A DNA stretch of 60,341 bases, from NCBI GenBank assembly GCA_015060225.1, contig SUYX01000011.1, positions 1 to 60,341 of the forward strand. Direction: 5' to 3'. The notes beneath the pieces are model-generated. The model was not told the origin of the DNA, did not search any database, and saw only the letters and a program-made list of their open reading frames with translations. Made by a program: the position numbers and the translations under genes. The stretch's first letter is position 1. Each line of letters starts with the position of its first letter. The stretch comes from Bacteroidales bacterium. GTDB lineage: Bacteria; Bacteroidota; Bacteroidia; Bacteroidales; UBA932. This document shows, piece by piece, positions 34,151 to 57,251 of the stretch.

Positions 34151-34549
34151 GGGGATGTTTTGGTTTTGACATCAGATTAATTGGTATGTAAGCATGCAGA
34201 GCATTGGCAGCCAAGCTCTTTAATCTCCAACTGCACGCCTATAACTGGCAACAATAACTATGCACTTGCTGCGTAATCAGCCAAGCTGGTACGCTTAATC
34301 CGCCCCGCCAAGGTGCCCGGTGGACAAGTATCCCGCCAACTCTTTAATCCCGCTATGGGTATGGCATATGGGGTATCATCTAAAGCGGGATGCGGATGTG
34401 GACTCCTTTAAAACATCCCAAGACCTAAAGGATAAGGTTAAGGTAGCCTGTCTTTCGGCAGCCTTTTACCGACAACCAAAGAAAGAATAAGCATGTAGAA
34501 AGCATATTGATGGTTTGGTTGGACGGCGGTTCGAGTCCGCCCATCTCCA
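34151..34549 (+). tRNA. ssrA: tmRNA (ssrA)
   Basis: tmRNA rescues stalled ribosomes. The 5' GGGGATG pairs with 3' CATCTCC to make the acceptor stem. A T-arm GGTTCGAGTCC lies just before it (34529-34539). The tag frame GGC AAC AAT AAC TAT GCA CTT GCT GCG TAA (34247-34276) encodes GNNNYALAA, close to the Bacteroides tag. CCA is not encoded. The 3' end is the integration site of the element that follows. Typed here as tRNA because it is a tRNA-like RNA. Confidence 0.92.
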
Positions 34550-34550
34550 C
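34538..34550 (+). repeat. attL core (13-bp repeat in tmRNA 3' end)
   Basis: CGCCCATCTCCAC is repeated in the same orientation at 57197-57209. The core is inside the acceptor and T-arm side of the tmRNA, so the gene stays whole after insertion. Confidence 0.85.
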
Positions 34551-34554
34551 TTTC

Positions 34555-43893: not shown

Positions 43894-44625
43894 CTATAAA
43901 CTAACTATGTGTTTAAGACTTGAGGATGTGGTTATGCTTGTATACGATTCTAGTGTTCTATATCCAGTTGGATTGTGTATCAGAAAATATTTGATGTGTA
44001 CGCTATAGCCATTTGTCAACATTTGGGATGTGTTTTGATTAGAAATAATGAATTCTATGTATGCGCTTTTTCCCTTTCTTGTAATTGTTGATGTGAAATT
44101 ACGGTATTTGCCACTGTTGGGTCTGTAGCCTGGCTTTGTTGTCTGTAGTTTTCCTATCAGTGTGTAGTTGTTGAATGTGTCAATTGGAGAGCCTGATTCA
44201 AATGTTATTTGCAGATCTGTTCCGTTAATGAGTGTTGAGGTTTTGTATTGCAGGTTTATCAATGGGAAGGTAGGCATTGGAGATGGTGAGGGGATGGATT
44301 CTTTTCCTATGGCTGCAAGACCATGGTATGCGGATACGAATAGGTTATATCCGCTTATGTGGGTGTCGGCGTTGAAGGGTGGACGTTTGGATTTTACATT
44401 TTTTGCCAATGCATTCCATTGGAGCTGTGTTTCGTGTGTTAGTTCTCCCCAGGCTTTGATGGCTCTTCTGTGTACGCATAGTTGGTCTATCTGGTTTGGG
44501 GTGCCAGGGAAGGTTGGGTTAGGTTTTGTCTTGTAGTAGCATTCTCCATTTCTGTGGTAGAATGTGATGTTGCCTACTGATGAGTAGCAATCGGAAAATC
44601 TGCTGTTAGGGTAGTATTTTGGCAT
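43894..44625 (-). CDS. Phage-associated protein with W..L...Q...WN motif
   Basis: A 243-residue protein. An N-terminal segment (QLCVHRRAIKAWGELTHETQLQWNALAK, then ISGYNLFVSAYHGLAAIG) is shared with the products at 44752 and 47302. Such proteins occur near structural genes in many phages. The C-terminal half is Ser/Thr-rich and beta-like. It is transcribed away from its two relatives from a shared promoter region. Confidence 0.5.
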   Translation of the reverse strand: MPKYYPNSRFSDCYSSVGNITFYHRNGECYYKTKPNPTFPGTPNQIDQLCVHRRAIKAWGELTHETQLQWNALAKNVKSKRPPFNADTHISGYNLFVSAYHGLAAIGKESIPSPSPMPTFPLINLQYKTSTLINGTDLQITFESGSPIDTFNNYTLIGKLQTTKPGYRPNSGKYRNFTSTITRKGKSAYIEFIISNQNTSQMLTNGYSVHIKYFLIHNPTGYRTLESYTSITTSSSLKHIVSL

Positions 44626-44644
44626 GATAAATCTCTGTTTTTAT

Positions 44645-44715
44645 GCAAATTTACATAAAGTATTACTTTAGGTAAATTGTTTATTATGCAAATACACAAA
44701 TAATTACTATATTTG
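44645..44715. promoter_or_regulatory. Divergent promoters with a central palindrome
   Basis: Minus strand TAAATTTG (44646-44653) faces the 43.9-kb gene and TATATTTG (44708-44715) faces the 44.75-kb gene. Between them AATTTAC-a-TAAAGT pairs with ACTTTA-g-GTAAATT (44648-44678). This is a likely operator for one regulator controlling both directions. Confidence 0.55.
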
Positions 44716-44751
44716 TAGTGGAATCAGAGGCTGCTAAGCATATACGTGAAT

Positions 44752-45813
44752 ATGATAGTAAAGCCTTCAATAGCATTTAACGATTTTGCCGGTACTGCAA
44801 AGGATGTTACCGCAAGAAATGTTAATGGTAGAAATATACTCTCCCATAGAGCTCAGCATAGCAAGATAGTGACTCCTGCTCAGGCTGTCACACGAAATAA
44901 ATTGTCTAAAATCTCCCGGGCATATAAGCAGCTTTCTGATTCCCAAATAACGGCTTGGGAGGTTTTGGCCAGTCATCTTAAAGGTGCTTCTTCTTTAGGC
45001 CAATCTGCAACTCTTACCGCCCATAATGCATTTGTGAAAATCAATTCCAACCGTGCAATGCTTGGTTTGCCATTGCTGGAGGATGCACCTGTTTACAAAG
45101 CGGATGTTCCAGCAGTGGTGTATGATGAGTTGTGGGTTTATTCCGACGTGGTGATATTCACCGGTCTTGAGGTCCCTTCTGATTCTTATAGGTTGGTTGT
45201 GAAGATGTCCACAGCCCAGAGTCCCGGCACTTCTAACGGATGGAGCAAAACAGTTGTGGTTGCTCCGGGGATTTTACCTGATTGGGGTGATGCGGATATT
45301 ACTGCCCTCTATACGGATACTTTCGGGATTACACCTGTTGCCGGACAGAAGTACTATTTGGAATGCTGGTTTCTGGATGTGAATACCGGTTTTACCGGAG
45401 AGAGTCTTAAAGTTTCTTCAGTTTGTAAGAGTGGCCCTGCGCAGTATGTTCCAAGAGTGCAGTTTAAGGAATCCCGTTATGAAGGTGGGGCAAATGAGGG
45501 GTATATAGAGGAGTTGGATTTTGAGCTTATTCCGGGTTCTGTGATTGTTTCCAATAATATGAAAGTGCATTGTACGGGATTCAGTTCTGGAGTGGTAATG
45601 CAATTTGCCAAATATCCTAAAAATATGATAAACGCCTGCAGGTGTCTTCATCCTGTCCGCAGCTTGGATGGAAAGTATAGGGTAATGCTGATAGAGAATT
45701 ATATCTCATTGGATAAGTATCGTGGGTATGTACAAGTAACTACATCTGCCAGAGGTGGACAGATGGGAATCAGACATTATGAAATTTTCTCAACCGCTTT
45801 GGCGGGTAATTAA
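44752..45813 (+). CDS. Phage-associated protein, paralogue 2
   Basis: A 353-residue protein. Its N-terminal 100 residues carry SIAFNDFAGTAKDVTARN, then ISRAYKQLSDSQITAWEVLASHL and LTAHNAFVKINSN, the same layout as its relatives. The remaining 250 residues are beta-rich with no recognised domain. ATG 44752 is preferred to the GTG at 44746. Confidence 0.5.
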   Translation: MIVKPSIAFNDFAGTAKDVTARNVNGRNILSHRAQHSKIVTPAQAVTRNKLSKISRAYKQLSDSQITAWEVLASHLKGASSLGQSATLTAHNAFVKINSNRAMLGLPLLEDAPVYKADVPAVVYDELWVYSDVVIFTGLEVPSDSYRLVVKMSTAQSPGTSNGWSKTVVVAPGILPDWGDADITALYTDTFGITPVAGQKYYLECWFLDVNTGFTGESLKVSSVCKSGPAQYVPRVQFKESRYEGGANEGYIEELDFELIPGSVIVSNNMKVHCTGFSSGVVMQFAKYPKNMINACRCLHPVRSLDGKYRVMLIENYISLDKYRGYVQVTTSARGGQMGIRHYEIFSTALAGN

Positions 45814-45824
45814 TTGATTGGATT

Positions 45825-46553
45825 ATGATTACTGCATTGTCAAATAATTTTGGAGCTGGTGAAATTAAGCTTATGGATTTCCAGAAAGATGGTCTTGTAG
45901 TCCTTAATGGGGCATTTGAGTTTAATCCTGCAAATGCTGCATACCTGGCAGCACAGGTGCTGGAGATAAAGGTGCCAAGGCTTATGATAAACAAGAGTAC
46001 AAATGCTGTGGTGTATCTGGTGGATATAGAGAACCAGATGCCGCATGCCACATTGCTCAAGGCTTGGGTAAAGGATTGTAATACCATTTGTATTGAGCCT
46101 TGCAGGTGCTTTGATTCGAGTGCACGTTTGCAGATAATCTTCTGCAGTGGGTTTGTGGTAAAGGGACAGCGTTCAGATATGGTTCTGGATGAGGTTGTAC
46201 GCCCAACAGTGGAGGCAGAGAGTGGAAATTTTAAGCTTGATTCTTTTGGCTACTATCAGCAGCTGATCATTAAGGATAATAGATGGGGATTCATGACACT
46301 TTTGTTTGAGAAGTTCCAGGCTCCCAATATCGGTGAGGAGTTTTCGTTCACTATTCCTCAGTTGCCGGATTCAATGGATTGTTATGCAGTGCTGGCTATT
46401 CCAGAGAATTCTCAGGAGGTGGGTTCTCCAGTTTGTGTTTGTCATATTGTTGGACAGGGAGTCAATTGCACCCCTGTCCAGGATGATTACAATTCTGCCA
46501 ATGAAGGCAGATTCCTTACAGGATGGTTTGTATTGGATGATATAACCGAATAA
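45825..46553 (+). CDS. Hypothetical phage-like protein
   Basis: A 242-residue soluble protein with no signal peptide and no recognised family. It is in the same direction and within 12 nt of its neighbours, so it belongs to the same operon and may be a structural or accessory part of it. Confidence 0.45.
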   Translation: MITALSNNFGAGEIKLMDFQKDGLVVLNGAFEFNPANAAYLAAQVLEIKVPRLMINKSTNAVVYLVDIENQMPHATLLKAWVKDCNTICIEPCRCFDSSARLQIIFCSGFVVKGQRSDMVLDEVVRPTVEAESGNFKLDSFGYYQQLIIKDNRWGFMTLLFEKFQAPNIGEEFSFTIPQLPDSMDCYAVLAIPENSQEVGSPVCVCHIVGQGVNCTPVQDDYNSANEGRFLTGWFVLDDITE

Positions 46554-46555
46554 AA

Positions 46556-46822
46556 ATGGATGATATGCCAAAGATGTCCCACATACAGATTACAAGGTTG
46601 CAGGGTGGTCTTGCAATAGCGAGTTTCAGTTTTGGAGTTCTGATAGCTATGGTGTGCCTGTTCTTCATTGAGCCGCTTGGAGAGATTACATATTCGGCAG
46701 TTTCCATTGTGAGTGAACTGCTGGTGCTGTGTGGGGCAATCTTAGGTGTTAAAGCTTCATATGATGTGAAGTTCCACAGGTTTGAAGCGGAGTTGCATAA
46801 GAAAGCAGATAAACAGGATTAG
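46556..46822 (+). CDS. Holin-like small membrane protein
   Basis: An 88-residue protein with two hydrophobic segments (GLAIASFSFGVLIAMVCLFF and SIVSELLVLCGAILGV) and a charged tail (KFHRFEAELHKKADKQD). Size, two helices and position before a spanin-like gene suggest a holin. It begins 2 nt after the preceding gene. Confidence 0.55.
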   Translation: MDDMPKMSHIQITRLQGGLAIASFSFGVLIAMVCLFFIEPLGEITYSAVSIVSELLVLCGAILGVKASYDVKFHRFEAELHKKADKQD

Positions 46823-46825
46823 ACT

Positions 46826-47305
46826 ATGAAACACTTCCTTCTTTTTATATTCTCTGCATTGTGTGTGGCATGCTCTGTTGCAAGGCAGGCTGCACCATCT
46901 GAGAAGCTTTCCACCAGGGTTGAGGTGGTTACAGTGTTTGAAAAGGATACTGTACTGGTGGAGATTCCCCAAATTGTGGAGAAAGTGCAGACTATGGATA
47001 CAGTATCGTTTCTGGAGAATGAGTTTGCAAAATCTTCTGCAGAGGTCTCGGATGGGATTCTGTCACATTCATTGGAGACCAAGCCGGTTCAGAAGCCGGT
47101 AGAGATTCAGAAAGAGATTGTTTACAGAGATAGTATTGTATTCAGAGACAGAACAATTATAGAGACTGTTGAGGTTGAGAAACCTCTCACAGGTTGGCAG
47201 CAGTTCAAGATTAAGACCGGTGGATATGCCATCGGGATGATTATAGGAATGATAGTATATTCAGTACTATATATTGTTAAACCCTTAAAATTTATTAAAC
47301 TATGA
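46826..47305 (+). CDS. Unimolecular-spanin-like lipoprotein
   Basis: A 159-residue lipoprotein with lipobox VACS (Cys 16). A charged, Val/Glu-rich stalk follows, then a C-terminal transmembrane helix (GYAIGMIIGMIVYSVLYIVK). An outer-membrane lipid anchor plus an inner-membrane helix is the u-spanin design used to fuse the two membranes in the last step of lysis. The ends of the gene overlap its neighbours (ATGA). Confidence 0.6.
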   Translation: MKHFLLFIFSALCVACSVARQAAPSEKLSTRVEVVTVFEKDTVLVEIPQIVEKVQTMDTVSFLENEFAKSSAEVSDGILSHSLETKPVQKPVEIQKEIVYRDSIVFRDRTIIETVEVEKPLTGWQQFKIKTGGYAIGMIIGMIVYSVLYIVKPLKFIKL

Positions 47306-48009
47306 AGTACGTTCCTTCAATTGCCTTTGACGAAATGTCGGGCTCAGCAAAGGGTGTAACCGCAGCTAAGAGCCGTGGTAGAAAGTACATCCGTAATCGT
47401 GGCTATGGTGGAGCAGTCCGCACTGCTGCACAGTCATCAGTTAAAGCGGTATTCAAACAGCTTACCCAGGCTTGGAAGAATCTTTCCAATGCTCAGATTC
47501 TTGCTTGGAATGCGCTAGCTCTTACTCAGGCAGGTAAGTCTGTACTGGGTACTGCATCAAAAATCTCTGGTGCTAACCTTTTCACCCGTTTGAACTATTG
47601 GGTGGTTACTTGTGGTGGTGACATCATGCAGAACCCTCCAACTCTTCAGGGTGTTGAGGCTCCAGCAGAGGCTATGATCAGTCTTACTCCAACCAAGTTT
47701 ACATTTGAGCTTGAGAGTGAGCCAGCAGAGCCAGAAAACCTTAAACTGATTGTGCAGGCATCTGCCCCACAATCAAACGGTATCAGCCGTGCATACAGCA
47801 AGGCTTCACAGATTGGAGAGCCGCTTGAGGCTGCCATTGAGGAGTATGATCTTAAGGCTGCATTTGATGCCAAGCATGGAGTTCCTACCTCTGCAGCGCC
47901 TAAAGTGTTCATGAAGTATTTCTTTGTGAATACAGTTACCGGTGAAAAATCTGGTGAGATGATGGCTATTGCCACTCTAACACCGGATGAGGCAAATCAG
48001 GAAGGCTAA
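47302..48009 (+). CDS. Phage-associated protein, paralogue 3
   Basis: A 235-residue protein: SIAFDEMSGSAKGVTAAK, then FKQLTQAWKNLSNAQILAWNALAL and ISGANLFTRLNYW. It shares the N-terminal layout with the other two. It is the last gene of the phage-like run, with its ATG overlapping the spanin-like TGA. Confidence 0.5.
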   Translation: MKYVPSIAFDEMSGSAKGVTAAKSRGRKYIRNRGYGGAVRTAAQSSVKAVFKQLTQAWKNLSNAQILAWNALALTQAGKSVLGTASKISGANLFTRLNYWVVTCGGDIMQNPPTLQGVEAPAEAMISLTPTKFTFELESEPAEPENLKLIVQASAPQSNGISRAYSKASQIGEPLEAAIEEYDLKAAFDAKHGVPTSAAPKVFMKYFFVNTVTGEKSGEMMAIATLTPDEANQEG

Positions 48010-48081
48010 AACTTCCGTATTCATACTAATTTATAGCAGGCCTATCTAACCCGCCAATTCCTATTTGGTCTGCTTAAAAAG

Positions 48082-48107
48082 CCGCCACTCTCAAAGAAGG
48101 GTGGCGG
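48082..48107. terminator. Bidirectional terminator
   Basis: CCGCCAC (48082-48088) pairs with GTGGCGG (48101-48107). On the minus strand it is followed by CTTTTTA, so it stops the defence operon and also the phage-like operon from the other side. Confidence 0.75.
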
Positions 48108-48113
48108 TAAATT

Positions 48114-49838
48114 TTACAAATTCTTTTCTTTGGGGGCAAATTTTGCCAATCTTATTAGAGCCAAAAATGATATTAATGCAATCTTCCAATTGTAATGTTT
48201 GGGCAGGTAAAAAGAGTGTGCAACATTATTCCTTATATTCAAGCAATGCCCGTTGCTAGAAAAAGCATATCTAAACAAATTCAAATCATCCTCATTAAAA
48301 CTAGCATAAAAGGCCTTTGAAATACTTGATTTATTCATTTTTAAGATTTCATCTAAAGTTATTTCACTTGTATTTCCATTTTGCAACTTTGTTGTCACGC
48401 CACCATTAATTTGAATCATATCACGTAAAATACCTTCAAATTTAATTGATAAGGAATCTACGCATTGGCTCCAATTTACCTGCTTACCTGCTATTACTCT
48501 ATTATATTGTTTTATAAAAGATTCTATCCCAAACCGTACTTGCTCTAACCAAGTATATTCATATTTCTTTCCTCCAATTTCTTTACAGTATGTCACTCCA
48601 AACATGGTTTTAGTGTAGAAAAAATCAACAATTTTACGCGTAGTAATTTTCTTGGTTTTACAGCTCTTTACAATTATATCTGAAACTAGATCACAGACTA
48701 TATCCATTCCATAATTATAAGCCTCATATTTGGAAGCATCATCCTTCATTTCTCTATGATTACCATTAACATCCTCCTGAACTGATTTAAACATCAATAA
48801 AGACTCAGATTTTTCTTCCAAATATTTGATTAACACATCATTCGACAGATAAGGCAATCCCGCACCTGTAACTAGAGCAACACAAATCATTTCTGTATTA
48901 CTCTTTGTTATAGATTCATATATAGCATTTAAGAACTTAATCTTTTCATCATTCTGAGGAATAGTAACACGTAAGGGTATGTATTGCTTCTTCTCTTTGA
49001 ATTTATTCTGCATCAACCAAACATTTTGTATTTTCTCATCACATTTAGCAATTTTATAGTATGCAATAGCTTCTTCGCATCTCTTCTCATTATGAAATGG
49101 AACATATAAATTAGATGGATCATCAGCCATTAGCAATGTCATTTTATAATCCCCCAAGAGTTCATATACATATTTCAGTTTTTCACTCTCTGTCGCCTGG
49201 GCATAATACTCTGCTAATTTCAAGTTATGTTCCTTCCATATATTATCTACAGAATTTAGAGCTAAAGCAATAAAGCGTTCATCAAAATTAACAGCTTCAG
49301 GACTTCTAAAAAATTTTTCTTCTTTTGCTTCTAAAAATATTCTGGTTTTAGTCAAATCCTCAACTTTTGTAGAATTAAGCGCATATGTCAATATTGATTT
49401 AATATCTTCAACCCTATACTTTTGATTCATTGCTAATTTTATTGTATGTTTTGCCAGCATACCAATATTAGGGCTATTATTATCTATACTCGTTTTTAAA
49501 CACTCAATATATTCATCAATAGCCGCCTTTTTATACGTATTACTCTTAGTAATATATGACATACATTCATTATATTTTGCCTTAGCAAGAGCATTTCTTG
49601 TCTCGCTGATTCTCTGTGATAAATATAACATTATTTGCTCTTTACCATCAGCAAACTTTTCAGGAATTTCTGGTATGAAATTAAGAGATGTGTGAATATG
49701 CCATTCCACTCTTAACAAAGCCTTACTACTATCTGTAAGAATATCTTCATACGATGGAAATTTTATTGTATCACTTACCCCTGTTATCTTCTCTATTTGC
49801 TTATGAACGTTTTTAAGTAATTCAGAATACTGTGCCAT
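48114..49838 (-). CDS. HEPN-like (DUF4209-type) protein of Septu-like operon
   Basis: A 574-residue protein, no signal or membrane segments. Near the C-terminus GHCLNIRNNVAHSFY (about 531-545) contains R-N-x3-H, the HEPN RNase-type motif seen in DUF4209 and related proteins. The bulk is alpha-helical with repeated Lys/Glu-rich helices. The start at 49838 (MAQYSELLK) follows a plausible site. The frame opens at 49874. The gene is 53 nt downstream of the HNH gene in the same direction and may be an RNA-cutting effector. The family assignment is tentative. Confidence 0.55.
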   Translation of the reverse strand: MAQYSELLKNVHKQIEKITGVSDTIKFPSYEDILTDSSKALLRVEWHIHTSLNFIPEIPEKFADGKEQIMLYLSQRISETRNALAKAKYNECMSYITKSNTYKKAAIDEYIECLKTSIDNNSPNIGMLAKHTIKLAMNQKYRVEDIKSILTYALNSTKVEDLTKTRIFLEAKEEKFFRSPEAVNFDERFIALALNSVDNIWKEHNLKLAEYYAQATESEKLKYVYELLGDYKMTLLMADDPSNLYVPFHNEKRCEEAIAYYKIAKCDEKIQNVWLMQNKFKEKKQYIPLRVTIPQNDEKIKFLNAIYESITKSNTEMICVALVTGAGLPYLSNDVLIKYLEEKSESLLMFKSVQEDVNGNHREMKDDASKYEAYNYGMDIVCDLVSDIIVKSCKTKKITTRKIVDFFYTKTMFGVTYCKEIGGKKYEYTWLEQVRFGIESFIKQYNRVIAGKQVNWSQCVDSLSIKFEGILRDMIQINGGVTTKLQNGNTSEITLDEILKMNKSSISKAFYASFNEDDLNLFRYAFSSNGHCLNIRNNVAHSFYLPKHYNWKIALISFLALIRLAKFAPKEKNL

Positions 49839-49855
49839 TATTTCTATAATTAAAA

Positions 49856-49880
49856 AGGGAATCGGCACTACCAATTCCCT
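49856..49880 (-). terminator. Intrinsic terminator-like hairpin between ptuB and HEPN genes
   Basis: AGGGAAT (49856-49862) pairs with ATTCCCT (49874-49880). Read on the minus strand it ends in CTTTTT. It lies between the HNH and HEPN genes and could make HEPN expression depend on read-through. Confidence 0.55.
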
Positions 49881-49891
49881 ATATTAAAAAT

Positions 49892-50614
49892 CTATCTTCT
49901 TACCGGCTCGTAATGATTACCAGCATCAAAACATTCTGCGCAAGTCCCGGGAGTATTTTCAATCAAAGCTTTTCTAACCTCATCCTTTCCCTTAAATACC
50001 GTAAACCATACAGACCAATTTCCTTTCAGATTAGCGTAGTAAACAATATCCTCAACAGAATGCTTCTTATCCTCATACTCTACCAATAGTTTCTCCGCAA
50101 GCTCCCAAGATTCATATCTGTGCCTCCATCTAAAATCTTGTTCAGACGTTGCCTCTTCACCAAATGGGTCCCTACCCAATTTTGCTAAATTGTAAAGGCC
50201 TTCTGCACCTTCTTTTAAATCTGCAGGAAGGGTCGGATTCAACTTTACCCTTCCAGATGCTTCATATACAAAATCAAGGAATGTATTATCCTTATGAGGA
50301 AAATGAGTTTTATTGTAGTCAACATCTGTTTCTCCTTTTACGGAATTGCAAATATTGCACGCCAATAGGAAGTTATTCCACTTTGTTTTCAGCTCTTTAT
50401 ATACATCTTTAGGCTTTACATGTTCAACATGCATATCTCCAATACTTCTTGGTTCTTCGCAATATGAGCAAAATGAACCTAAATTGGCTATCAGAGGGGC
50501 CTTAGCTGTTCCATATGGATCATAATCCTCCTTGATTGTATGAATAACCTTCCGGTTCATAGAAGTAATAAACTCTACTTCATCACCAGGTTTCTTCTTA
50601 CTTACCGGTCTCAT
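49892..50614 (-). CDS. ptuB: HNH endonuclease, PtuB-like
   Basis: A 240-residue HNH nuclease. CSYC (about 51), HVEHVKPK (about 65) and NFLLACNICNSVKG (about 85-98) make the CxxC...HxxH...CxxC zinc-HNH site. PtuB nucleases act with PtuA ATPases against phages. It overlaps the PtuA gene end by 17 nt. The name follows the pairing and motif. Related HNH proteins also occur in retron systems. Confidence 0.75.
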   Translation of the reverse strand: MRPVSKKKPGDEVEFITSMNRKVIHTIKEDYDPYGTAKAPLIANLGSFCSYCEEPRSIGDMHVEHVKPKDVYKELKTKWNNFLLACNICNSVKGETDVDYNKTHFPHKDNTFLDFVYEASGRVKLNPTLPADLKEGAEGLYNLAKLGRDPFGEEATSEQDFRWRHRYESWELAEKLLVEYEDKKHSVEDIVYYANLKGNWSVWFTVFKGKDEVRKALIENTPGTCAECFDAGNHYEPVRR

Positions 50615-51950
50615 ATTTCACACTTTTAGAATTATACTCCATCTTAATCAAAGCCACATATGCAGGATCATCGCTAAACTCAGCCTCAATCTCATTTAGT
50701 TTATCTTTCAGTTCTTTGGCCTTTTTAGGATTCCCCTCATCCAATTCCTTAAAGTATGCTGTTGCCGTAGCAACCATTTCGTTATAGCGCTTACTTCTTA
50801 TCTCATTTACCATACCCATTCTGCCACTGGCAATATCCTCCAAACCCTCTTTATACGGAGCGCCTTCTATTGAAGTATTCTCATCAAAACTAATCAATTC
50901 ACCCTCTCTCAAGCTCTGCACAATAAACGGAGAGTGCGTTGTAACTATAAACTGGATATTTGGAAAAGCTTCTTTCATATCAGCTAGTACATGTTGCTGC
51001 CATTTTGGATGTAAATACAAATCCACCTCATCAATCAATACAACACCAGGAGTCTTACGTATAGCATCTTTACCCAAAAATCCATTCAACTCAATACATC
51101 TATAAGCAATCTCTGAAACAATGTTAATCATAGATTTCAAGCCATCACTCATATACGAATAATGATGTCTCTCCGGTTTTTTACCTTTAATGGAAACAAC
51201 TGCTTCAATCTCTCCATTGTCTATATCAATCTCGCTTAAAGATGGTATTGCCTTTGTTAAAGCTTCATAAAATGCATCTCTTGTCCCTTCAAACTCTCTT
51301 TCATCTCGTATATTCTTATCATATCTCCTCAACCAGTCCAAAGCACTTGCAAAGTCAACTCTATTATCGGCCAACGCTGCTTTATAAGCCTTTTCAATTC
51401 TTTGCTGTCTTTCCTTGGTCTTCCTCACTGTCTTAACTTGAGCATCTATTCGGTTTGTACCAAATGATAAAACGACAGGCAAGACAGAAGCCGCATCAAT
51501 AGTTTCTCTCTGCTTCTCCATCTTACCCACAACTTCAATCAATTCACCGGCACAAACACTATTATGCGTTGTAGTTCCAGCTTTAGTAAATTCTCTGTAC
51601 CAATGAATGGGGCGCGTTGCTAATTCAATATGATCACCATTTCCATATGTCTCTGTAAACTCAGCTTCAATGGATATTCGTGGCAATTCTACATTAGGAA
51701 AATAATCCTTTTTCTCACTATCATACCTAAGGAATCTATCAGATTCTGCAAAATTTCTCCTAAAAGCCTTTCCACCTCTCAACGAACGCAACGATTGCAG
51801 ATAAGCACCTAAACCTATCTGTACAGCCTGCAGCAAAGTAGTCTTACCTGCTGTATTATTACCAATTGCAACTGTAAGATTTCCATTAAATTGAATTTCC
51901 TTATCCTCAAATCCCTTGAAATTCAACATATGTATTTTTGTGATCCTCAT
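50598..51950 (-). CDS. ptuA: AAA ATPase, PtuA-like
   Basis: A 450-residue SMC/OLD-like ATPase: Walker A GNNTAGKTTLL (about 32), signature YSYMSDGLKS, Walker B VVLIDEVDLYLHP (about 304-316) and TTHSPFIV. A promoter box TAAATTTG on the minus strand (51981-51988) fits a start at 51950 (MRITKIHMLNF) and not the longer frame from 52013. It is the ATPase partner of the HNH nuclease. Confidence 0.8.
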   Translation of the reverse strand: MRITKIHMLNFKGFEDKEIQFNGNLTVAIGNNTAGKTTLLQAVQIGLGAYLQSLRSLRGGKAFRRNFAESDRFLRYDSEKKDYFPNVELPRISIEAEFTETYGNGDHIELATRPIHWYREFTKAGTTTHNSVCAGELIEVVGKMEKQRETIDAASVLPVVLSFGTNRIDAQVKTVRKTKERQQRIEKAYKAALADNRVDFASALDWLRRYDKNIRDEREFEGTRDAFYEALTKAIPSLSEIDIDNGEIEAVVSIKGKKPERHHYSYMSDGLKSMINIVSEIAYRCIELNGFLGKDAIRKTPGVVLIDEVDLYLHPKWQQHVLADMKEAFPNIQFIVTTHSPFIVQSLREGELISFDENTSIEGAPYKEGLEDIASGRMGMVNEIRSKRYNEMVATATAYFKELDEGNPKKAKELKDKLNEIEAEFSDDPAYVALIKMEYNSKSVKYETGK

Positions 51951-52109
51951 ACCCCCACAATTTATAGTGTACATTTTTCGCAAATTTAAACAATTATTAT
52001 TAATCTTTTTCACAACTTTCTCATATTTGCATTCTCTGCACTTTCTGCACTTTTACATTGGCATATGCTACAGTCTATGCAAAGAATGCAGAGTATGCAA
52101 AATATCATC

Positions 52110-54359
52110 TCATTTATACTTCTTTTCATAGGAACCATAATCCAGTTTCCTGAAATATGGACTCTTAATCCAATCTTTAAAGGTTCGTTCACTCATTGAG
52201 TGCATTTTGGCAACATCCACACCCTCCCTTGTAGAAAATGTAATCGGCAAATCCATATAAACACTTTTTTGCTTCTCATTTAATCCACTTAAAGGATCTG
52301 CATAAAAGCGTTTTTGAGCCTTCTGTGCCCCCGCAATGAAATAATAACATAGCTTAAACGCCATCCTCAAACTATCAGATGTTACACAACTCAAATCAGA
52401 TTCTCCGCATGCAAATTTTATAACCTCTATAACCAAAGCAAATCTTGCACAATAACGTTCCATCTTGGTATTTACCCCTACAAAACTTGCACTGGAGCGC
52501 TCCATAATATCACGGCCACTATTAAACCAATGTCTGTACATTTGGTAAGCACTATCTGTAAACCTGATTACTTTCGTTTTTCCATTATATTTTATAGATC
52601 TGATTTTGGAAATTACCTCACTCCAAGCCTTAACTGTCTCGTCTCCTATTTCCTCATCCTGGAATCTTGCAAAACTTCTTCTATCCGGAAAAGCAAAAAG
52701 CCACCTGTAGATAAATCCACTCTCTATTTTCCCATCAGCAAATTTCTTCAGTAATGCAGGTTGCACACCACCTATAACACCCACAAAAGGGCTATCAACA
52801 GTAAATGATTCCGAATGAAGCCTATTGACAATAATCGGAACACCTGTAAACAGCTGTGTCCAGATCTCTTCATCATTACCACTACGGTATCGGCTAAAAC
52901 TCTTAAAGAATCCCATCAATTCATCGGCATAAATCGCAACACCTCTGGGCGTATTCAAATGCTGCTTCAAAAATCCTTCAACGGTAATATCACTAAGAAC
53001 TACTTGTCCATACACCGGAGGCTCTTCAAATGATTTTGATTTCAACTCTGCAGAATTCTTTTCAGCTTCATATACTTTCAGCTTCTTCTTATAAGCCTTC
53101 AGATTGTCTCTGTCCATCTTTCGCAAAGGCTCTATTGCAAATTCTAAACAGCTACTTTTATTTGTTCCAGGCTCTCCAACAATGGCTATATAAAATATCG
53201 CTTTCTCATGCCAACCCCGTTTAATCTCCAATGACAAAGCATTTCCAAGAGCAATGCTAGCTGTAAACAACATTGCTGGTCCAATATAGTCAGCTGGGAA
53301 ATTTAAGCATCTATGGGTGGTACATATTATGTCTCTCACTTGAATAGGGAATATCTCTATCGGGAATGGAATACATTCATAATTTGGACACCTATCACTC
53401 CTCACTCCATGCATATGACATACATAGAAAAATGATCCAATAGAAATATCCTTAGTCGTCTTGAGATAGTTATCAAAGGCAATCGCAACATCGTCCGCTG
53501 CATATTTTGAAGAGAACCTTGACACTCTATCAAAAAAATCTCTTCCTGGCTCTCCCAAGGAACTCAGTGCCATCCCAACAGTCCTCCACTCATCATAATC
53601 ATCCAGTACAATCTCCATATCCTCCCAAGCCTTCACATATGCTTCAACTTTTTCCAGATCCAAAGAATTGTCTGTAATACATTCTTCTAACTCTTCCTCA
53701 TTATTATAATCTTGAATACAAAAGGGAATACACGATTCATTAAAATATGCATTATCATCATAGCTCAAAACTCTCAATCTTGTCACATCTTTACAAGCTG
53801 AATCAACTTTGAGTCCCTTACCCTCCAGTAAAGCCACTAATGATGTGAAGTAATCTAAATGCCCGGTATAATCAATGTTATCAATAAGTACAATCGCAAA
53901 CAATCCATTACCACTTACTGACAACCCGCAATAATAAACAAAATCAAACTTTTGAATAATCTTCCTGGCAAAATCTATATCTTCCACGTTATCAAAATCC
54001 ATCACAACCAAAGGATTATAGTTTACCATTTTCTCTACCAATGGAATTTTAGAATCGCGGGTAGATAAGTTTGCAGAAATGGTGGCTGCAGGAAGTTTGG
54101 TAACTTTTGCATGATTCCGCGCTTTCTTATCTTCTATCGTACGGATTGAATCAATCACATCTCTGTATTTCTCACCCATACATAAAAAATCCTTAAGCTT
54201 GCACACAAGTTTTGGTCGCAATACAGACTGTAAAGAATTTTCATTAGAGGAAATAAGATGCACAGCAGACACATTATTAGGCACAATACTTGAAAATACG
54301 CTCACCAGCATATCTCCAGGACAGAGCATTGCACTCTGCCTTAAATCAGACTTTAGCAT
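52110..54359 (-). CDS. Primase/helicase-type protein (BT4734-like N-terminus plus DUF3987)
   Basis: A 749-residue replication protein. The N-terminal part (MVNYNPLVVMDFDNVEDID, SVSGNGLFAIVLID, DVTRLRVLSYD) is a BT4734/VirE-N primase-like region. A C-terminal DUF3987 domain has Walker A-like GEPGTNKSS (about 393) and IYADELMGFF. Such proteins replicate mobile elements. Start uncertain, since an internal Met lies 16 residues in. Confidence 0.75.
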   Translation of the reverse strand: MLKSDLRQSAMLCPGDMLVSVFSSIVPNNVSAVHLISSNENSLQSVLRPKLVCKLKDFLCMGEKYRDVIDSIRTIEDKKARNHAKVTKLPAATISANLSTRDSKIPLVEKMVNYNPLVVMDFDNVEDIDFARKIIQKFDFVYYCGLSVSGNGLFAIVLIDNIDYTGHLDYFTSLVALLEGKGLKVDSACKDVTRLRVLSYDDNAYFNESCIPFCIQDYNNEEELEECITDNSLDLEKVEAYVKAWEDMEIVLDDYDEWRTVGMALSSLGEPGRDFFDRVSRFSSKYAADDVAIAFDNYLKTTKDISIGSFFYVCHMHGVRSDRCPNYECIPFPIEIFPIQVRDIICTTHRCLNFPADYIGPAMLFTASIALGNALSLEIKRGWHEKAIFYIAIVGEPGTNKSSCLEFAIEPLRKMDRDNLKAYKKKLKVYEAEKNSAELKSKSFEEPPVYGQVVLSDITVEGFLKQHLNTPRGVAIYADELMGFFKSFSRYRSGNDEEIWTQLFTGVPIIVNRLHSESFTVDSPFVGVIGGVQPALLKKFADGKIESGFIYRWLFAFPDRRSFARFQDEEIGDETVKAWSEVISKIRSIKYNGKTKVIRFTDSAYQMYRHWFNSGRDIMERSSASFVGVNTKMERYCARFALVIEVIKFACGESDLSCVTSDSLRMAFKLCYYFIAGAQKAQKRFYADPLSGLNEKQKSVYMDLPITFSTREGVDVAKMHSMSERTFKDWIKSPYFRKLDYGSYEKKYK

Positions 54360-54385
54360 ATCAGTAACATTAAGATAACAGTATG

Positions 54386-54685
54386 CTATTTCTTAGTACC
54401 ATGCTTATATCTGACAAGCTTCTTACTCCGTATCTTGGCATCAAACTCATCTGCATCCAACAATGTTCTTCCCTCAATTTTCTTAAACTCAACAACGCCG
54501 CCGGTGCTCCACCTATAAATAGTCGCAATACTCACATGAGCTAATTTTGCCGCCTGTATTACAGTATAATACCTCTTTTCTTCTGCTGTAATCTCCTGTT
54601 TAGGCAAAGCCTCATTAACTGCATCCTTAATAATAGGCCTTAACACATTATTGCAAAAATCCTGGAATATTTCAGTAACATCCAT
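54386..54685 (-). CDS. Helix-turn-helix (excisionase-like) protein
   Basis: A 99-residue protein with a MerR/HTH_17-type motif: YYTVIQAAKLAHVSIATIYRWSTGGVVEFKKIEGRTLLDADEF. In Bacteroidetes elements this family is close to the integrase and primase and acts as excisionase or activator. Confidence 0.75.
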   Translation of the reverse strand: MDVTEIFQDFCNNVLRPIIKDAVNEALPKQEITAEEKRYYTVIQAAKLAHVSIATIYRWSTGGVVEFKKIEGRTLLDADEFDAKIRSKKLVRYKHGTKK

Positions 54686-54838
54686 AATAACATCAATAAT
54701 TAATAGTTAATAACAGGAGTGGCCACTCTTAAAATGATAATTATCTTCTCACAAAAATAGAATCCAATAAACTGATTTTCAAATCACAACACAGGATATG
54801 GCCAATGTGCCATTTTCGGTGTACCCATTACAATATAC

Positions 54839-54911: not shown

Positions 54912-55673
54912 TCAGATAGAATACTTGCTTAAAATTGGCCAAATTCTGTAAGACTCCTTCTCATTGCAACATTTATCCTTGCTAAATTGCACAATGGAGC
55001 AAGAGCCATTTCTGCCATAAAAAATAAAAGCATCATTCATAATCTTCTGTGAAAGCATATACTTTTGCGCAAACAAAGTTGCCTCATTCTTTGGACCAAT
55101 CCATTCGGCTTTTCCGCCAACTATAATGTGGTCATGAATCAACCTATCCAAAAACTCATCGTTTGCCCCTTTAATATACTGTTTCAAATCTTTTGCCATC
55201 CCCCTAAACCTGGTCCTTCTTGCGCTATGCATATCACAAACCTGCGGAATTCTATCTATAACCTCAGAAAACCTACTTTTAGAACTATTCAAAAGGGCAA
55301 AATATTCATATACAATAAACCCGTCTGTATAAGCACTTTCCAAACATCCAGCATTCTTGTCCATAAGATTACCCAATGAATTTAGAGCCTCATCAAATAT
55401 CTGAAAGCTTTTCACAAAGGAAAGAACTTCACGGCAAAAAATAGGATTACTTTCAATATTACCCCAATTATCACATACGAAATAATATACCGAACTCAAT
55501 TTTTCGGATAAATCACTGAAAGCCATCCATAACCTTTCAATTGAAAATTTCCCTATTACGTGAGAACACTTAGACTTAAGGGATTCTTCTATTGAGAAAA
55601 TATCAGCACTTATCATCTGCAAAGAAGATATGCTCTGATCAATAATCGTTCTACCTGGTCCCATAATTACCAT
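54912..55673 (-). CDS. Unknown protein encoded with the integrase
   Basis: A 253-residue helical, soluble protein with no family I recognise. It overlaps the integrase stop by 7 nt and is closed by a terminator, so it is translated with the integrase and may take part in excision or its control. Confidence 0.55.
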   Translation of the reverse strand: MVIMGPGRTIIDQSISSLQMISADIFSIEESLKSKCSHVIGKFSIERLWMAFSDLSEKLSSVYYFVCDNWGNIESNPIFCREVLSFVKSFQIFDEALNSLGNLMDKNAGCLESAYTDGFIVYEYFALLNSSKSRFSEVIDRIPQVCDMHSARRTRFRGMAKDLKQYIKGANDEFLDRLIHDHIIVGGKAEWIGPKNEATLFAQKYMLSQKIMNDAFIFYGRNGSCSIVQFSKDKCCNEKESYRIWPILSKYSI

Positions 55674-57010
55674 TTCATGAAAGCCTCATCACTTAGAATA
55701 GTCTCAGCTTTCTGCAGTGAATCCGCTTTAATATATTTCTTGAGAGACTTAATACTAGTATGCCCAGTTACAGCACATATATTAAAAACATTCATACCGG
55801 CCAAATACATTAAAGTTGCTCCTGTTCTGCGTGCTGTATGAGTTTGAATAAGTTTGTATTTAGGAATTCTCTCTGTACCAAACACACCGGATTTAGACGT
55901 TTCAACCTCCACCATCTCATCTATTTTGGCCAACTTTCCAATCTCCTTTATATACATATTAATCTTCTGATCAACCAAATGCGGCAACTTATAATCATAC
56001 TTCTCAAGAATTTTCACCAATTCAGGTTTTGCTGGAATATATACAGCAACTCCCGTCTTTTGTTGCCTAATCTGAATAATAACTTTACCATCATCATAAA
56101 CACGAATATCATCCATTACAATATTGTTGTAATCAGAAACACGTTGAGCTGTATAAACTCCCACCATAAAAATATCTCTGGCAATCTCATGACCTTTAGA
56201 CAAACCAGACAAATCCACCTCACACATACGCCTAAGTTCATCCTTGGTCAAGTAAATAGAATCAACATCCACCCTAACACCTCTAAATCTTCTATCGTGG
56301 AATTTATTATTAGATGTATATCCCTCTGCTTCTGCACAGCCCAAAATTGTTATTAAATTATTCAGACACTTTGCAACAGTATTCGCACTATACTTCTTTT
56401 GGGTATATAGAAATGTCTGAAACCTATTCCTGAAATTCAAATCAATATCATCAAAATCATAATGCTTCTTTGAATACTTCTCAAAAGCCTCAAACTGTCT
56501 CACAATAGTCTTAATAGTCTTAATACTTTGTTCAGTAAAAATCTTACCTCTCGAATTTGCTCTTTGCCCAGCAGAAATCTGAGACACATACAACTTTAAA
56601 TACTTATCCAAGGTCATTCTATTCTCCGCCTCAATACGCTGCCTTTCAGCTTCAGCTTTAGCCTCTTCCTCCAAAAGCCTGCGTTCCTCCTCCTCACGAA
56701 CCTCCTTATACATCACATCCTCAACAATCTTTCTAGCAATATCCGGAGTAATAACATCCCCAGCATCCAACCTTGCATTAATAGAAGTTTCCAGAATATC
56801 AAGTTTAGAAAACAACTTTGATCCCTCCGCAGACTTGCGGAACTTTCGAAGATTATCAGCAGAACTCTGAGCTTTCTTCCACTGCTCAATATCAACCTCA
56901 ACAAGGGTATCCACCTTAAAATCAATCTTTAACTTCCTCGACCTCACCCTGGCAAACAAAGTTGCCATACCCTTATCATGCGAGGTCCTCAGCACAAAAT
57001 TCACAGCCAT
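55667..57010 (-). CDS. int: Tyrosine site-specific recombinase (integrase)
   Basis: A 447-residue phage-integrase-family protein. An arm-binding/SAM-like N-terminal part contains a Lys/Glu-rich coiled segment (about 100-130). Catalytic residues are Arg in YTAQRVSDY (about 287), His-x-x-Arg in HTARR (about 391), His in GHTS (about 414) and Tyr in KKYIKAD (about 423). It sits just inside attR and is transcribed inward. It should recombine the 13-bp tmRNA core. Confidence 0.93.
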   Translation of the reverse strand: MAVNFVLRTSHDKGMATLFARVRSRKLKIDFKVDTLVEVDIEQWKKAQSSADNLRKFRKSAEGSKLFSKLDILETSINARLDAGDVITPDIARKIVEDVMYKEVREEEERRLLEEEAKAEAERQRIEAENRMTLDKYLKLYVSQISAGQRANSRGKIFTEQSIKTIKTIVRQFEAFEKYSKKHYDFDDIDLNFRNRFQTFLYTQKKYSANTVAKCLNNLITILGCAEAEGYTSNNKFHDRRFRGVRVDVDSIYLTKDELRRMCEVDLSGLSKGHEIARDIFMVGVYTAQRVSDYNNIVMDDIRVYDDGKVIIQIRQQKTGVAVYIPAKPELVKILEKYDYKLPHLVDQKINMYIKEIGKLAKIDEMVEVETSKSGVFGTERIPKYKLIQTHTARRTGATLMYLAGMNVFNICAVTGHTSIKSLKKYIKADSLQKAETILSDEAFMKW

Positions 57011-57196: not shown

Positions 57197-57209
57197 CGCC
57201 CATCTCCAC
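57197..57209 (+). repeat. attR core
   Basis: CGCCCATCTCCAC, identical to 34538-34550 and in the same orientation. The flanking bases differ from those of the tmRNA. Confidence 0.85.
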
Positions 57210-57251
57210 GAGAAAGGGGTTCACAATTGTGAACCCCTTTCTCGTGGAGAT
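57202..57251. terminator. 50-bp perfect palindrome at attR (displaced tmRNA terminator)
   Basis: Two 25-base arms meet without a loop, running from ATCTCCACGAG to CTCGTGGAGAT. Its left arm holds most of the attR core. In the uninterrupted chromosome it would follow the tmRNA directly and probably be its terminator. Confidence 0.7.

Follow-up and report, generated by a model that had tools for sequence, protein, structure and literature searches.

Does a HEPN-like gene that directly follows a Septu ATPase and nuclease belong to the Septu system, or is it a separate defense gene that has come to lie behind it? The question is raised by a Bacteroidales genome (lineage UBA932; GenBank assembly GCA_015060225.1), where ptuA, ptuB and a gene of the DUF4209 family stand in a row on contig SUYX01000011.1. 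The stretch analyzed here, called the window, comprises positions 1 to 60,341 of this contig, 60,341 nucleotides (nt) in all. The initial annotation of the locus saw in the third gene a possible part of Septu that would add an RNA-targeting step. Our analysis leads to a different picture, which we regard as fairly probable: a two-gene Septu system carried on an island, accompanied by an independent DUF4209 RNase of the HEPN kind that would serve as a self-contained second line of defense. We consider the third gene an add-on and no Septu subunit because a terminator-like hairpin separates it from ptuB, because its family is rare beside ptuAB, because its relatives keep other partners, and because it is broken in a sister genome that retains the pair.

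The features of the locus are as follows, with protein lengths in amino acids (aa).

50598..51950, minus strand: ptuA, Septu ATPase, 450 aa (PADLOC PDLC00267; PDB relative 8ee4_A; Walker motifs)
49892..50614, minus strand: ptuB, HNH nuclease, 240 aa (PADLOC PDLC00315; Pfam HNH; PDB relatives)
49856..49880, minus strand: terminator-like hairpin between ptuB and the third gene (11 bp stem, loop of 3, then a T run)
48114..49838, minus strand: DUF4209/HEPN gene, 574 aa (to TTG 49874 as an open reading frame, ORF; Pfam PF13910; conserved R-N-x-x-A-H)
48216..48233, minus strand: RNNVAH, the R-x4-H motif of the HEPN domain (from the translation; R548-H553 in the 586-aa numbering)

The Septu pair

PtuA matches the PADLOC model PDLC00267 with 517 bits (E 1.2e-155) over model positions 1-429 of 438, its closest solved chain in a PDB sequence comparison is 8ee4_A (E 3e-36), and its translation contains, by eye, the Walker A motif GNNTAGKTT and the Walker B motif VVLIDEVD. 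The mechanically called ORF opens at GTG 52013 and ends with the same stop at 50598; we place the start at ATG 51950, because this is the codon for residue 22 of that ORF, where the PADLOC match sets in. PtuB matches PDLC00315 (234 bits, E 3.8e-70) and Pfam HNH (31.3 bits), finds PtuB chains in the PDB such as 22bv_F at E 0.0009-0.003, and keeps the HNH-type residues HVEH, CxxC and N, again as judged by eye. The gene lies directly downstream of ptuA and overlaps it by 17 nt (50598-50614), so that the pair and its overlap are as the initial annotation described them. Judged from its sequence, it is a conventional two-gene Septu type I system. Identity with the effector pair of retron Ec78 (type I-A) was rejected, since both proteins miss the NCBIfam equivalog cutoffs for that pair (PtuA reaching 174.4 of 500 bits, PtuB 44.9 of 150 bits). 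Matches to PtuA were found in 97 plasmid records, every one at less than 60% identity, and none to PtuB in plasmid records or viral contigs.

The DUF4209 protein

The third gene follows on the same strand, in the order originally reported, and its description as HEPN-like with an RNNVAH motif is borne out. PF13910 (DUF4209) is matched at 29 bits, above the Pfam gathering cutoff of 22.3, and the motif is intact. All four of our family alignments (7, 7, 8 and 5 sequences, with overlapping memberships) keep the R, N, A and H of R-N-x-x-A-H without exception, and RNNVAH is best read as family homology and not as a chance hexamer. DUF4209, the C6orf70 family, was assigned by Anantharaman et al. (2013, PMC3710099) to the HEPN superfamily, as predicted active and with the remark that it 'occurs in R-M related operons' (restriction-modification, R-M). 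The third protein is probably an RNase of the HEPN kind. As an ORF the gene opens at TTG 49874 and would encode 586 aa, but ATG 49838 is the likelier start, because the TTG sits within the hairpin.

The family is also represented among the PADLOC candidate defense systems as PDC-S39, which is matched by all nine DUF4209 proteins scanned, two of them over the full length (441 and 452 bits). In the window protein the best stretch covers model positions 487-572 of 615, near the C-terminus, at 26.3 bits, and the N-terminal region is unmatched by PDC-S39 models. The protein has no sequence relative in the PDB (best E 0.44) and no tblastn match at 1e-5 in plasmid or phage records. Among viral contigs, neither the protein as a single query nor alignment A3 gave matches, alignment A1 gave one locus and A2 four, and the A1 locus shares its contig with one of these four. 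IMG/VR contigs carry DUF4209-family ORFs of 583-603 aa (L067 4030-5838, L108 1393-3171, L109 4564-6315 and L110 4528-6339).

The hairpin and the candidate promoters

The hairpin at 49856-49880 has the longest stem of the six terminator-like sites found in 47900-54800, where shuffled sequences lead one to expect 3.1. Its centroid fold is at -15.7 kcal/mol (z -3.16), a value equaled in 0 of 200 shuffles, and the sister genome described below retains it with a single base change near the loop. We infer that it ends transcription behind ptuB. For comparison, the best 45-mers downstream of six other ptuB genes fold at -5.7 to -14.3 kcal/mol. One of them (L060) has a hairpin and T run immediately after ptuB, like the window, and the strongest (L062) begins about 100 nt further on; no common sequence was seen among the hairpins behind these six genes.

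Promoters of the Bacteroidetes type follow the consensus TTTG-N18-23-TAnnTTTG. With this consensus we found eight full matches in the whole window against 2.9 expected, and a single one on the minus strand in 47900-54800:

54752..54783, minus strand: promoter-like TTTG/TAnnTTTG match upstream of the small HTH_17-like gene listed further below

The second hexamer alone occurs five times on the same strand of this interval, once 38 nt ahead of the ptuA ATG. Immediately ahead of the third gene, on the minus strand within 47900-54800, the consensus was matched neither in full nor by its second hexamer alone.

Linkage of ptuAB and DUF4209 in other genomes

We searched 393 Bacteroidales genomes and a second set of 395, both of them samples of larger groups. 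The ptuB model matches in 95 of the 393 genomes and DUF4209 in 10 (12 places); the window protein as a query finds matches in 11. Both families are present in six genomes (G000, G136, G263, G300, G367 and G379). Among the ptuB places listed, which do not include those of G136 and G263, a DUF4209 gene shares its contig with ptuB only in the window. The weak ptuB-model match of G136 (E 2.2e-4) may correspond to an HNH ORF two genes from the DUF4209 gene, where no ptuA is recognizable.

Seen from the side of the ptuB loci, a PtuA match accompanies ptuB in 26 of 29 loci outside the window and a DUF4209 ORF in none, with flanks too short to reach the domain: in the 24 loci measured, the sequence downstream of ptuB extends for only 202-1509 nt, which makes this a weak test that misses the conserved C-terminal domain. 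Nine ptuB loci were followed further, for 674-6399 nt beyond the gene (over 2 kb in six of them), and likewise have no DUF4209 ORF. From the other side, the two genome sets together contain DUF4209 at 23 distinct places, of which the window is one. We examined 20 of the 22 others, setting aside the fragments G367:C10 and G749:C94, and counted 19 neighborhoods, as no DUF4209 ORF was called in the contig-end fragment of G379; not every neighbor was scanned. Recognizable ptuAB was found in 0 of the 19. An ATPase fragment lies 3.5 kb from the DUF4209 gene of G564 and scores 19.5 bits against PtuA, and no ptuAB was found near the places in G400 and G438 that are matched by the window protein alone.

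The initial annotation had suggested a search for the three-gene layout in other genomes, with linkage of the HEPN gene to ptuAB as the point at issue. Among the listed places of the 393 genomes this layout is confined to the window, its only other occurrence is in the sister genome with the third gene split, and elsewhere the HEPN gene is largely unlinked to ptuAB. A conserved three-gene Septu system was rejected on the lack of independent linkage, the whole-genome search of the 393 genomes being the stronger test. Among the genomes searched, the trio is restricted to one lineage.

The sister genome

The one other genome with the same element is a Bacteroidales metagenome-assembled genome, RGIG9123, from water deer rectum (G021 in our set). 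Within the element, the DNA is 98.7% identical across 7661 nt and 95.3% identical across 5470 nt. Outside it, a 12-kb stretch of the window matches RGIG9123 over 3.9 kb at 98%, over 0.7 kb at 97% and in eight more pieces at 66-97%. Full-length ptuA occurs in two of the 39 genomes of the genus, these two, with two further weak matches of 23 and 18.6 bits. Since RGIG9123 is a sister genome, it provides no independent evidence for the trio.

RGIG9123 has ptuA and ptuB undamaged, and its third gene is interrupted. The parts of this gene lie at the ends of two contigs, both of which contain the same 4-nt target, corresponding to window positions 49549-49552. These ends also carry 146 nt (L007 8327-8472) and 134 nt (L006 1-134) that find no match in the genome to which the window belongs (estimated completeness 86%). 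The gene was likely broken by a transposable insertion whose inner part is unassembled. Beyond the break, the two copies differ at 7 positions in 1434 nt, with three codons changed synonymously and three not, too little difference for a judgment on selection.

Partners of other DUF4209 genes

R-M genes are present in 7 of the 19 neighborhoods: NgoPII with a C5 methylase (G367), HsdM (G729), HsdR (G621 and G575), HsdR, HsdS and HsdM together (G590), Eco57I/ResIII (G539) and MmeI (G736). HipAB is found once (G405), a small gene with a PIN gene three times (G245, G263 and G300:C6; one PIN by Pfam, two by sequence judgment), a Ymh gene, itself of a HEPN family, once (G564), and DUF2971 with HNH once (G136). 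The proximity of HSDR_N exceeds a simple chance estimate: of 22 DUF4209 places in 20 genomes, 3 have it within 6 kb, against 0.15 expected (Poisson p 0.0005), the 6-kb limit having been chosen after the neighborhoods were seen. N6_Mtase lies within the same distance at two places (G590 and G729), and this domain occurs in all 20 genomes. On four Hymenobacter plasmids with DUF4209, BREX genes, HipA and MmeI are found on one each, and the fourth has no labeled R-M or toxin gene.

At L052 437-1107, L053 7464-8134 and L055 2420-3081, DUF4209 genes encoding about 650 aa stand ahead of a small overlapping gene and a gene of the PIN type, the latter confirmed by Pfam in one case, and a conserved toxin-antitoxin-like trio of DUF4209, small gene and PIN-type gene is possible. 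Each Hymenobacter gene is directly followed by a hypothetical gene of 173-194 aa, overlapping in three of the four cases (L103 7185-7706, L104 7008-7592, L105 6794-7351 and L106 6578-7135), which is a possible partner of DUF4209. The DUF4209 copy of G539 is split into two ORFs, as is probably, by eye, that of G176.

The island and the rest of the window

Going by its gene content, the trio rides on an integrase-bearing island, with the following genes upstream of ptuA.

52110..54359, minus strand: primase-like gene (BT4734-like N-terminus, PriCT_2, DUF3987; Pfam)
54386..54685, minus strand: small HTH_17-like gene (Pfam 25 bits, below the cutoff of 27)
55667..57010, minus strand: tyrosine integrase (Pfam Phage_integrase, Phage_int_SAM_5)

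The N-terminal part of the primase-like gene also matches the PADLOC model RTasVirE-PriCT2 at 76 bits, and a 253-aa gene without a family lies further upstream on the minus strand. On the integrase side, homology to RGIG9123 stops at 57209; this comparison did not reveal where the island ends on the other side. A perfect 25-nt inverted repeat without a spacer, at 57202-57251, stands at the end of this homology and may be an element end or an assembly artifact.

On the far side of the trio, the genes of 43894-48009 (43894 on the minus strand, 44746 and 47302 on the plus strand) look alike by eye, and the one at 47302, which has no Pfam family, converges on the third gene. No DUF262 or PIN-YoeB domain was found by Pfam in the eight window proteins scanned. 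Rfam (at gathering score) and ARAGORN each give a single hit in the window, the tmRNA gene at 34151-34552.

Interpretation

Under the add-on reading, PtuA and PtuB would form an ATPase-gated HNH nuclease as in other Septu systems and would not need the third gene for their action. The DUF4209 protein would sense failure or damage via its long N-terminal region and cleave RNA as a dimer through R-x4-H, halting growth of the infected cell. Perhaps expressed weakly, from transcripts that run on past the hairpin, it would constitute an abortive second layer, as Anantharaman et al. propose for HEPN genes beside R-M (PMC3710099). The idea that a HEPN protein brings in an RNA-targeting step calls for a caveat. 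The step would not be the contribution of HEPN only, since the PtuAB proteins of Septu EcB88 and retron-Eco7 have themselves been linked to cleavage or degradation of tRNA-Tyr (PMC13096335, PMC11555353).

Several observations weigh against an independent add-on. The third gene is the next gene on the same strand, its ATG lies 53 nt from ptuB, and this layout is common to the sister genome; all this fits a single operon. The hairpin need not act as a terminator in this organism. A sigma-70-type scan gives sites near the start of the third gene, e.g. 49962-49933, which mean little because such matches are at chance level (32 found against 28 expected). Six of the 19 other DUF4209 neighborhoods contain no recognized defense gene, the genome samples are limited to 393 and 395, and the places of ptuB are known only as listed. 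The HEPN fold and the RNase activity of the third protein are predicted from its family.

A true three-gene Septu variant, in which the HEPN RNase is the killing effector and is held back or set off by PtuAB, is rather unlikely. Gene order and spacing speak for it, a published operon, ptuXYZ, joins a PtuA-like ATPase, a nuclease and an RNase (PMC11980606), and coupling of HEPN proteins to R-M has already been proposed (PMC3710099). On the other hand, the trio does not recur independently among the listed places of the 393 Bacteroidales genomes, the sister has ptuAB whole and the third gene broken, the hairpin stands between the pair and the third gene, and DUF4209 relatives are found without recognizable ptuAB. 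Hence the inclusion of the third gene in Septu, as first suggested, is not upheld.

We regard as unlikely an origin by neighborhood alone, with unrelated defense genes gathered in the island and the third gene a single-gene defense like PDC-S39 without any link to Septu. The place of the family in PADLOC, with its nine matches in nine proteins, and the DUF4209 genes on virus-type contigs agree with such an origin; however, the window protein matches PDC-S39 near its C-terminus only, and the HsdR proximity suggests some selection for company with DNA defense. Quite unlikely is a lineage-specific three-gene Septu with the HEPN RNase as a fail-safe, which the hairpin would hold at a low level and which read-through, or the loss of PtuAB under phage attack, would set free, whereupon RNA cleavage would stop the cell. 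That the third gene has no contribution to make, being inactive or in decay, seems very improbable: it is interrupted in the sister and DUF4209 is split in G539 and probably in G176, but the window frame is open over 574 codons with the motif kept, and the sister differences are too few to judge selection.

We return to the two-gene Septu with an added HEPN gene; as it stands, the locus has an add-on gene and is no new system. With it, the defenses adjoining DUF4209, so far R-M, HipAB and PIN pairs, now include Septu. The lineage with the full trio and the sister with the third gene broken form a natural comparison, and, should the coupling exist, the idea of 'immunity plus suicide RNase' would become testable in Septu.

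Comparison with known systems

The window shares with Septu type I both proteins, their order, the overlap and the motifs; it differs by the DUF4209 gene behind the pair, and its proteins are divergent from the solved ones (PtuA to 8ee4 at E 3e-36). The PtuAB of retron Ec78/Eco7 (type I-A) is a related ATPase and HNH protein, whereas in the window Pfam shows a primase-like gene upstream and the equivalog cutoffs are missed. With respect to targets, PMC11555353 does not decide if PtuAB itself makes the cut; for the Septu of E. coli ATCC 25922 it cites DNA as the target.

With the DUF4209/C6orf70 HEPN proteins and PDC-S39, the window protein has in common the C-terminal domain, R-x4-H and the defense neighborhood; it differs in the N-terminal region and in having Septu as its partner instead of R-M. 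The ptuXYZ operon, reported to be conserved and widespread, comprises a DUF262 nuclease, a PtuA-like ATPase and a PIN-YoeB RNase (PMC11980606). Like the window, it has a PtuA-type ATPase, a nuclease and an RNase in a row, but the nuclease and the RNase fold differ from those of the window. A HEPN effector is also described for the type IX retron Kva2 (PMC13405049). In PrrC and other HEPN RNases coupled to R-M, the RNase adjoins a DNA-cutting defense, as in the window; the coupling is known for PrrC (cited in PMC3710099), whereas for the window the adjacency is seen from the genes alone.

The pairing of Septu with DUF4209 was not found in the literature searched, as represented mostly by titles and the beginnings of abstracts, whereas suicide RNases behind DNA defenses, including HEPN proteins coupled to R-M, were proposed in 2013 (PMC3710099). 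Thus the concept is not new; what is new here is the pairing of two known parts, in one lineage.

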